The translations under genes and the position numbers were made by a program. The notes below the pieces were generated by a model. The model ran no database searches, was not told the origin of the DNA, and saw only the letters and a list, made by a program, of their open reading frames with translations. DNA of 64,000 bases from NCBI GenBank assembly GCA_024330265.1, contig JANDLT010000020.1, positions 1 to 64,000 of the forward strand, written 5' to 3'. How positions within the stretch are numbered: the first letter of the stretch is position 1; every line of letters starts with the position of its first letter. Below, piece after piece: positions 7,945 through 63,272 of the stretch. Origin of the DNA: Pyrinomonadaceae bacterium MAG19_C2-C3 (GTDB taxonomy: Bacteria > Acidobacteriota > Blastocatellia > Pyrinomonadales > Pyrinomonadaceae).

Positions 7945-8020
7945 ATGATTAAGTTCGGTGAAGCGGAAATCGCATATACCATTTACATAAATGCAGGGTG
8001 TGCAAATTAAAGCTGTGTTT

Positions 8021-8215
8021 TCACCGCGTGAGCGGTGGCGTGAATTTAGCCGTGCGTTTTAACGCACGGTGGACAACGATAATCACACCCGTCGCGTCAG
8101 CGACGACTGAACACCAGTCATTTTCAATCGTCGCTAACGCGACGACAATTCGATTTTGACGTTTTCCGTGCGTTGAAACGCACGGCTAAACTCATGCTAT
8201 CGCTACGCGATGATT
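8021..8215. repeat. cluster of REP-like hairpins
   Basis: Several short dyads stand in a row: TCACCGC-gtga-GCGGTG (from about 8021), CCGTGCGTTTTAACGCACGG (about 8050-8069), GTCGCGTCAGCGAC (about 8090-8103), CGTCGCTAACGCGACG (about 8129-8144), CCGTGCGTTGAAACGCACGG (8166-8185) and ATCGCTACGCGAT. The two CCGTGCG hairpins with flanking TTTAG / CTAAA also pair with each other, giving a nested larger dyad. It lies between the 3' end of the M61-like gene and the MITE-like element. Confidence 0.7.
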
Positions 8216-8266
8216 TATGCACACGCTTCACATAAACACCGTACGCCATCGCGCGTTTAAGTGATG

Positions 8267-61213: not shown

Positions 61214-61918
61214 TTATTTTCTCACTCCGAACAGAGGTTGCCCGTATTCCACGGGTTGGGCGTTCTCGACGAAAATCTTTTCAATCGTGCCGCTTATCTC
61301 CGCCGGAATCTCGTTCATCAATTTCATCGCTTCGATGATACACACTACCGTATCCGCTTGAATGGAACTTCCGGTTTTTACGAACGGGTCGGAAGTCGGT
61401 GATGCCGCGCGGTAAAACGTGCCGACGATAGGCGACGTGATAATTTGTAAGTCGGCATCCGTATCGGGTATGGGCGTCGCCGTCGCTGAATTTGGTGCGG
61501 GAGCGGCGGAAGAAAAAGACGGCGCGGGAGTTGATACGGCGGGAGCGGCGAAGGATGAAGCGAGCGGTTGTGACGGTGGCAGAGCGACGGACGAAAAATT
61601 TGTTTCCGCGTTCGCCGTACCGCGACGCAGACGCACACGGAAGCCTTCGCGTTCAAGCTCAAAATCGGTGAAGCCGTGCCGGGAGATAAGTTCGACGACT
61701 TCGCGCAGTTCATCCATATTCACCGAAGTGCCGATAGAATTGGCGTCTGCCCGTCCGCCTTCTTGACGACGCGAATTATTCGACGGATTGTTGGAATGAC
61801 GACGACGACCGCCGCCGTGACGCTCAAAGCGGTCACGCCGTTCGGATGTTGATTGGTTGTTCGTGCTGTCGGCATTTGTCGCCGCTTCAGGTGATTGGGG
61901 TTTGTCTTGTTCGCTCAT
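61214..61918 (-). CDS. accB: acetyl-CoA carboxylase biotin carboxyl carrier protein
   Basis: 234 aa. The biotin is attached at Lys199 in [12 protein letters not shown] by BirA. The preceding part ([33 protein letters not shown]) is the conserved AccB N-terminal helix region, from about residue 70, and a Pro/Ala/Ser-rich hinge follows. An extra, low-complexity N-terminus of about 65 residues (Gln/Ser/Arg/Asn-rich) precedes it, longer than in most homologues. It is upstream of accC in the same direction. Confidence 0.96.
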
Positions 61919-61956: not shown

Positions 61957-62262
61957 AGTAAGTGACTCACCTTACGCAGTTTTGATTTTTAGCCCGATTC
62001 ATCGGGCTTTCCGCGAAGCGGCACTTAGACAGGTTCCGTTTGACGGCTGGGTGAAGCAAGTTGAACATTGGAGGGCGTTTTAACGTCCTTCCCGCTGCCG
62101 CTTTAGCATCCGGCTAAAGCCAACTTTCAAAAGGACGTTAAAACGCCCTTTCGATTCTTACGCCCTGTGTCCACGCGATGAATCGCGTGGCTAAGTGCCG
62201 CTCGCGCGGGAAGCCGCTTGAAAGCGGCTAAAGTCAAAACCGCGTAAGGTGAGTAAGTGACT
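61957..62262. mobile_element. 284-bp ORF-less element with TIRs and 11-bp direct repeats
   Basis: The element spans 61968-62251. Its ends CACCTTACGCAGTTTTGA (61968-61985) and TCAAAACCGCGTAAGGTG (62234-62251) are inverted with one mismatch. AGTAAGTGACT flanks it perfectly on both sides (61957-61967 and 62252-62262), as expected of a target duplication. The inside contains hairpins (AGCCCGATTCATCGGGCT, GGGCGTTTTAACGTCC facing GGACGTTAAAACGCCC, CACGCGATGAATCGCGTG, AGCCGCTTGAAAGCGGCT) and no gene. It lies between accB and rplQ. Confidence 0.82.
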
Positions 62263-62269
62263 AAAACTC

Positions 62270-62367
62270 ATCCACGAATCGCACGAAACAGCACGAATCA
62301 AAGCCGGATTGCTTCAATGTTTTTATTCGTGGATAAAACCTTTCTTGTCTTTCATCGAACTGACGTT
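62270..62367. repeat. dispersed hairpin repeat, copy 2 (inverted)
   Basis: TCCACGAATCGCACGAAAC with an ATTCGTGGATAAAACC arm, followed by CTTTCTTGTCTTTCATCGAA, corresponds to the repeat at 6531-6665 read on the other strand. Confidence 0.65.
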
Positions 62368-62552: not shown

Positions 62553-63272
62553 TTAATCGGTATCTTTCTCTTGCGCGGTTGATTCGGTTTTCTGTGAACG
62601 CCGCCCGCCGCTTGTCTGCGCGGTGTCATCAGGGGTAGCTCCATCCGTCCCGCGCTTCTCCGTCGTTTCGGGCTTCTCGAAAGTTTTGTCGGCTTTACGT
62701 CCGCCGCGCCGCCCGCCCGATGTCGCCCGCGATTCGCTCGCCCGCGCGGTCTTCTTGTCACTAACGCGCGGTGTGCTGTTGCCCGCGTACTTGATTTCTG
62801 CCGCCCCGCCGACGAACTCGATAATCGCAAGTTCGGCATTGTCGCCGTCGCGTCTGCCAAGACGAATGATGCGCGTATAACCGCCGGGACGTTCCGCGTA
62901 GCGTTCGCCCAATTCATCGAACAACCGCTTGAGGGCGGCGACGCCTGCCGTGCGCGCGGGGCGTTGCGCTCCCGAAGTGCTTTTACGACTCGTCGCGGTC
63001 GCCGCGCCGTGATTTCCAGCGTGAAAAAAACCTGCCGCCTGACGCCGCAAGTGAACACGTTGCGCGATTGCTTCATCGCCTGACAGAGCGCGTGCGTGAC
63101 GTGAAAGCGTGATGGCGCGCTCGATAAACGGGCGCAACTCCTTAGCTTTCGGAACAGTCGTGATGATGCGTTCGTTGCGCGCGTTAACGAGTGAGGTCGC
63201 AAGGTTGCGAAGCAAAGACATACGATGCTCCGATGTGCGTCCAAGCTTACGATGTGCTTTTAAGTGCCGCAT
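62553..63272 (-). CDS. rplQ: 50S ribosomal protein L17 with long C-terminal extension
   Basis: 239 aa. The first 70 residues (MRHLKAHRKLGRTSEHRMSLLRNLATSLVNARNERIITTVPKAKELRPFIERAITL) and the later LKRLFDELGERYAERPGGYTRIIRLGRRDGDNAELAIIEFV are typical L17, which is normally about 120-130 aa. Here about 30 residues rich in Gln, His, Ala, Gly and Arg separate the halves, and about 80 charged, low-complexity residues follow. The start is bordered by a GTGATGA repeat. It is downstream of rpoA, as in the usual alpha operon. Confidence 0.94.
   Translation of the reverse strand: MRHLKAHRKLGRTSEHRMSLLRNLATSLVNARNERIITTVPKAKELRPFIERAITLSRHARALSGDEAIAQRVHLRRQAAGFFHAGNHGAATATSRKSTSGAQRPARTAGVAALKRLFDELGERYAERPGGYTRIIRLGRRDGDNAELAIIEFVGGAAEIKYAGNSTPRVSDKKTARASESRATSGGRRGGRKADKTFEKPETTEKRGTDGATPDDTAQTSGGRRSQKTESTAQEKDTD

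Follow-up and report, generated by a model that had tools for sequence, protein, structure and literature searches.

MITEs are commonly described as remnants of deletions or as end-only hitchhikers of one IS family. ISAba11 makes target site duplications of 5 bp (PMC7885321), and the canonical duplication of IS701 is 4 bp, whereas that of IS4 is about 10 bp (PMC2266710). IS66 elements start with GTAA and are flanked by 8-bp repeats (PMC11946415), and the IS1031 group has GA(A/G)CCTGT ends and TNA repeats (PMC12016507). Here we describe an element in a window of 64,000 nucleotides, i.e., the whole stretch of DNA that was analysed, from Pyrinomonadaceae bacterium MAG19_C2-C3. The element itself, for which we correct the length of the duplication, is an ordinary, well-formed MITE of what is very probably a known IS group, and the part worth following up is that its ends may be interchangeable around one hairpin core.

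The MITE Between rplQ and accB

The element lies between rplQ (62553-63272) and accB (61214-61918), both encoded on the minus strand, and comprises 290 bp (61965-62254), as defined by the block from ACTCACC to GGTGAGT that is conserved in 39 copies of the same genome. An earlier note on this DNA had described it as 284 bp long, but the other copies show that the conserved block reaches three bases further out on each side (ACT...AGT). The inverted ends reported in that note, CACCTTACGCAGTTTTGA (61968-61985) and TCAAAACCGCGTAAGGTG (62234-62251), are present with one mismatch, and together with the outer bases they make up terminal inverted repeats of 21 bp (ACTCACCTTACGC-A/G-GTTTTGA, one mismatch). 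The left repeat reads ACTCACCTTACGCAGTTTTGA on the plus strand (61965-61985) and its outer 13 bp are identical to the ends of ISAba11-group ISs, and the right one reads ACTCACCTTACGCGGTTTTGA on the minus strand (62234-62254). By chance, such end sites are expected 0.03 times in the whole window. No ORF of at least 60 aa is found inside the element, which agrees with the earlier description.

A perfect 11-bp direct repeat, AGTAAGTGACT (61957-61967 and 62252-62262), does surround positions 61968-62251 as had been noted, but it cannot be kept as the target site duplication, which is 5 (sometimes 6) bp in the other copies. The duplication of the window copy is the 5-bp AAGTG (61960-61964 on the left and 62255-62259 on the right), and the repeat appears to be 11 bp long because the adjoining target bases, AGT (61957-61959) and ACT (62260-62262), match the element's own ACT...AGT termini and thus extend the duplication. 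Target counts over the copies assign these two triplets to the left and right parts of a palindromic target motif, ANT|NANTN|ANT, to which the target of the window copy, AGT|AAGTG|ACT, is a perfect fit. The predicted sequence of the locus before insertion would be ...ATATAAGTAAGTGACTAAAAC... The order rplQ-accB is shared by 29 other genomes, and the element is absent there in all of them (0/29); the gap between both genes is 0-524 bp in these genomes vs. 634 bp in the window, with intergenic DNA that is not alignable. Just right of the element, at 62266-62340, there are direct and inverted repeats with ATCCACGAAT and GCACGAA motifs, which are apparently another intergenic repeat.

Copy Number, Age and Choice of Targets

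The earlier note took the element for a transposed MITE and proposed to search the genome for its ends. A sequence search revealed about 40 copies instead of a single one, at least 39 of which are distinct and full-length, and most of them have clean target duplications. Exact duplications of 5-6 bp flank 26 of the 39 full-length copies and 43 of the 62 end-paired elements that were collected, e.g., AAGTG, CATTA, GATTA, and GAATC, with a few being 6 bp long. The reconstructed targets have T at position -1 and A at +1, and their 5-bp core prefers A as its second and T as its fourth base; a less pronounced A and T, each two positions outward of these flanking bases, complete the palindromic consensus A-N-T|N-A-N-T-N|A-N-T. 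The outer 13 bp of the ends have 158 matches in the genome with at most one mismatch, vs. nine for a control with the reversed pattern. The 39 copies share a mean pairwise identity of 83%. However, the identity reaches 99.3% between the window copy and one on a different contig, and 99% or more within a group of three further copies; as these near-identical copies reside at different sites, some of the transposition was recent. Practically all 39 copies are intergenic, and 24 of them lie between co-oriented genes. Seven insertions appeared to be located within ORFs, but six of these are upstream extensions of the frame and one is near the C-terminus. The element is thus short, has terminal inverted repeats, contains no ORF, occurs in dispersed copies with duplicated targets, and has an IS partner with the same ends, as is characteristic of MITEs.

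The same ends also border other classes of elements, namely a 278-bp variant, elements of 202-219 bp whose hairpins differ, one compound of 363 bp, and IS-sized elements. The 202-219 bp MITE family (L117, L118, L110, L101, L108, L120, and others) has ACTCACCTTACGC ends and hairpins that are unrelated to those of the 290-bp class (GCGGCTGTGCCGC, GGAAAGGCTGTGCCTTTCC, GAGGCGTAGCCTC), with about 20 copies showing 5-bp duplications. The 363-bp element (L086:2460-2822) is a MITE of the 215-bp class in whose middle another long, GC-rich palindrome is located. A facing pair of ends 1554 bp apart in L100 was considered as a candidate for a full IS and rejected, as it encloses an ordinary host gene; L100 contains a 280-bp element with one decayed end.

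The Hairpin Interior

Strong interior hairpins had already been recognized, and this stretch of the window indeed folds 15 standard deviations better than shuffled sequences (z = -15). The consensus structure of the 39 copies comprises an end stem, five local hairpins, a connecting stem, and a central stem of 18 bp. From left to right, the window copy contains the outer left hairpin AGCCCGATTCATCGGGCT (61991-62008), the second left hairpin CAGGTTCCGTTTGACGGCTG (62030-62049), the left arm of the central stem AGGGCGTTTTAACGTCCTT (62072-62090), the central hairpin GCTTTAGCATCCGGCTAAAGC (62100-62120), the right arm of the central stem AAGGACGTTAAAACGCCCT (62131-62149), the right hairpin CCACGCGATGAATCGCGTGG (62171-62190), and the outer right hairpin AGCCGCTTGAAAGCGGCT (62212-62229), whereby each arm of the central stem is also a local hairpin. 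Three inner pairs of the outer right hairpin vary with compensation, and among the copies this hairpin has three forms that are fully paired in all cells but one. The right inner hairpin has a conserved A.C mismatch.

Paired columns have a mean diversity of 0.041 vs. 0.240 in the spacers, which is about six times less (Mann-Whitney p = 8e-23), and the difference is found for GC columns (0.029 vs. 0.258) as well as for AT columns (0.065 vs. 0.228). Across genera, 92% of the cells in the six local hairpins of 28 cores are paired vs. 72% after shuffling, 204 cells are changed on both sides vs. 69 in shuffled alignments and 15-40 with the partners slid, and double changes occur in 26 of 44 pairs, whereby the alignment was chosen with the structure model and an exchange of whole hairpins or palindrome correction could contribute to these values. 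This covariation shows that the pairing is maintained, for whatever reason. A scan of the element revealed neither an intrinsic terminator nor a promoter consensus, and Rfam 15 gave no relevant match above the gathering score for the window copy and the arrays of the relatives.

The Same Core Between Different Ends

A covariance model was built from the 39 copies, which together form the V1 class with ISAba11/IS701-type ends, and was run on the own genome and on relatives. Among 60 relatives that belong to the same family or class, it has matches in 26, and it also detects arrays without ACTCACC ends in the own genome, whereas the 202-219 bp elements and the 363-bp element, which have the same ends and other hairpins, reach at most 25 bits, and short elements of Anaerolineae at most 27 bits. 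One hairpin array of the own genome (L096:1995-2242) has the ends CTAATGTCTGAACA and CTGATGTCTGGACAG, scores 64 bits, and shows no clear duplication.

Three further kinds of ends were found around such cores, with copies of V2 and V3 being counted in the examined parts of the genome. The V2 elements at L089:708-976 and L029:480-750 are bounded by GTAACTACT ends and flanked by exact repeats of 8 bp, AATTTATC and GAAAAATA. With the ends trimmed, their core is 69% identical to that of V1 over 240-257 bp (E about 1e-23), and the alignment includes both outer hairpins and everything in between, with the similarity fading at the ends. The V2 ends recall IS66 (PMC11946415) but differ from its consensus GTAAGCG. 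In G045, which belongs to another family, V4 elements carry the core between GAGCCTGTTTGGAAATT-like ends (GAG...ATT) with the TNA repeats TCA, TAA, and TGA, which recall the IS1031 (IS5) group (PMC12016507), and their core is 72% identical to that of V2 over 189 bp after trimming of the ends (E about 1e-15). The window itself contains a V3-class MITE (7993-8229) with GAAGCCTGTGCA-like ends and the 8-bp duplication ACATAAAT/ACATAAAC, which matches the core model at model positions 57-235 with 44 bits. V3 cores in general score about 40-50 bits with the structure model and have no significant sequence homology to the V1 core, so that their homology to V1 is less sure. The hairpins of this V3 copy are CCGTGCG...CGCACGG and CGTCGC...GCGACG, and further copies are present in the examined pieces of the own genome. 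Enzymes for the V2 to V4 ends were not found, and no autonomous IS is located near the nine end matches in G045.

Homologous cores are thus located between unrelated ends, and therefore recombination between MITEs has probably exchanged ends and core. Most simply, this would take place at the outer hairpins through recombination or template switching. We tentatively propose, with slightly less than even confidence, that the multi-hairpin core is an independently maintained module, old in the class, which has been combined with GTAACTACT ends (8-bp duplications), GAGCCTGTTTGG ends (TNA), ISAba11-type ends (5 bp), and perhaps GAAGCCTGTGCA ends (8 bp), and that one cargo has in this way been dispersed by several transposases. 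Our preferred guess is that the hairpins are kept because folded RNA or DNA makes an intergenic insertion tolerable.

It is also possible, although we rather doubt it, that the hairpin core is the primary unit, either a selected structured RNA or cruciform DNA, which repeatedly gains different ends and for which the IS701 ends are merely the current vehicle. Cores that are homologous while their ends and duplications differ would fit with this, as would the constraint on the stems together with strong compensatory change across genera. The core-like arrays in G029 have no recognizable ends, and one of them is absent from the same site in the congener G002, as judged at the level of gene order with boundaries that are not alignable, which points in the same direction. 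However, compensatory change can also arise through template-directed correction of palindromes or when copies swap entire hairpins, the A.C mismatch that is conserved in the right inner hairpin speaks against a simple selection for RNA of one strand, and there is neither an Rfam match nor a known transcript or function.

It appears unlikely that similar hairpin interiors arose independently in different MITEs, so that the common architecture would be convergent and not homologous. The 202-219 bp family with its same ends and quite different hairpins demonstrates that hairpin-rich interiors can arise repeatedly, and the V3 cores match in structure only. The E-values between V1 and V2 and between V2 and V4 argue against convergence, and so do the class-B elements, which do not exceed 25 bits with the same model.

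The Probable Transposase Behind the Ends

The window contains no mobilizing enzyme, as stated in the earlier note, which suggested a search for a full-length IS with the same ends. Such an IS was found in the own genome as a decayed element of 1129 bp, which has two copies on contig C71 and encodes a frameshifted transposase of the IS701 family, and in G005, which represents a different genus of the same bacterial family, as an intact IS of 1126 bp with exact ACTCACCTTACGC at both ends and the 5-bp duplication AAGTA. An intact IS of the own genome on contig C141 encodes a transposase of 356 aa, which is assigned to NF049921 (IS701) with 337 bits vs. a cut-off of 250; its ends ACTCATGTTACGC have two mismatches, and it is flanked by the exact 4-bp duplication CAAA. 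The ISs of the own genome with exactly matching ends are pseudogenes, whereas the intact one deviates at its ends; the contigs of this draft assembly are interrupted within such repeats, so that an intact copy with perfect ends could be missing from the assembly or absent from the genome. A transposase from a cyanobacterial plasmid that is annotated as "group ISAba11" shares 47% identity, and relatives in Acinetobacter and Polaromonas have ACTGATGTTACGC at their ends and duplications of 5 bp. The catalytic D, D, and E and the Y-R-E-K positions are invariant among six aligned transposases; no solved structure was matched by sequence. The two 1129-bp copies (L095:3010-4138 and L126, C71:54287-55414) are the same over about 900 bp, the frame breaks included, but their first 220 bp contain numerous differences, which may be due to gene conversion or to an assembly chimera. 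In Anaerolineae (Chloroflexota) assemblies (L208-L221), the exact 20-mer end CTCACCTTACGCAGTTTTGA occurs on other short elements of about 96-170 bp, several of them with 5-bp flanking repeats, and this end sequence is thus present in another phylum.

Because of the ends, the duplication length, and the transposase family of the matching ISs, the enzyme type is that of the ISAba11 group of IS701. Both an NF049921-type transposase above the cut-off and 5-bp duplications, which define this group, were found, with the C141 copy having 4 bp. An IS4-type transposase, as assumed in the earlier note for a 284-bp element with an 11-bp duplication, is most improbable: the perfect direct repeat around 61968-62251 would be in line with the duplications of about 10 bp made by IS4 members, for which about 8-13 bp are typical (PMC2266710), but the conserved block of the other copies includes the outer ACT/AGT, the duplications are 5 (sometimes 6) bp, with 5 bp in most copies, and the transposases of the ISs that share these ends belong to the IS701/ISAba11 group. 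Equally improbable are palindromic repeats of the REP/BIME type spread by a RAYT enzyme, as the element is intergenic, rich in hairpins, and present in many copies like these repeats, but measures 290 bp vs. 20-40 bp of REPs (PMC3733652) and has long terminal inverted repeats and 5-bp duplications that are typical of DDE transposition.

The copy number, the ends, the 5-bp duplications, the target motif, the ISs that agree in ends and duplication length, and the near-identical recent copies are all observed, and it is very likely that the window element is a MITE that is moved in trans by an ISAba11-group DDE transposase of the IS701 family, with the identity of the actual mover being deduced from sequence comparison. 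An ISAba11-group transposase would recognize the ACTCACCTTACGC ends, cut, and insert the element with a 5-bp stagger at the AT-rich palindromic ANT|NANTN|ANT, whereby the central 5 bp would be duplicated. At the window locus, the insertion would have occurred at AGT|AAGTG|ACT between rplQ and accB. MITE and IS share only the terminal 13-15 bp, and the interior is therefore not derived from the IS.

Comparison with Known Systems

A structured interior, whose stems are conserved and covary across genera, occurs here with at least three pairs of ends that are unrelated to each other. If this is confirmed, the interior of a MITE can be the conserved and selected part, while the ends are replaceable. 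Moreover, there are dozens of natural copies for asking what hairpin arrays do to the transcription of neighboring genes or to transposition. We found no description of interchangeable ends around one hairpin core in the literature that was searched, which covered a minor part of the subscription journals.

With the ISAba11 group of the IS701 family, which is characterized by ACTSAYSTTACGC-like ends, an IS of about 1.1 kb, AT-rich 5-bp duplications, and an NF049921 DDE transposase (PMC7885321), the window element has only the terminal 13-15 bp in common, and it carries no transposase. A similar relation is known for MITEAba12 and ISAba12, as this MITE is likewise small, shares the ends alone with a co-resident IS, and has duplications of the length made by that IS (PMC6382973). 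However, MITEAba12 has 113 bp and 9-bp duplications, and in the accessible part of that report a multi-hairpin core shared across different ends is not mentioned (PMC6382973). Correia/NEMIS, CIR, QMITE, and other structured MITEs are also short and intergenic and have transcripts that would be strongly folded, but they typically form one long stem, or two arms as in CIR (PMC2229807; PMC10969869). In the window element, in contrast, six or seven hairpins follow each other in an ordered row, their stems covary across genera, and the ends probably can be exchanged.
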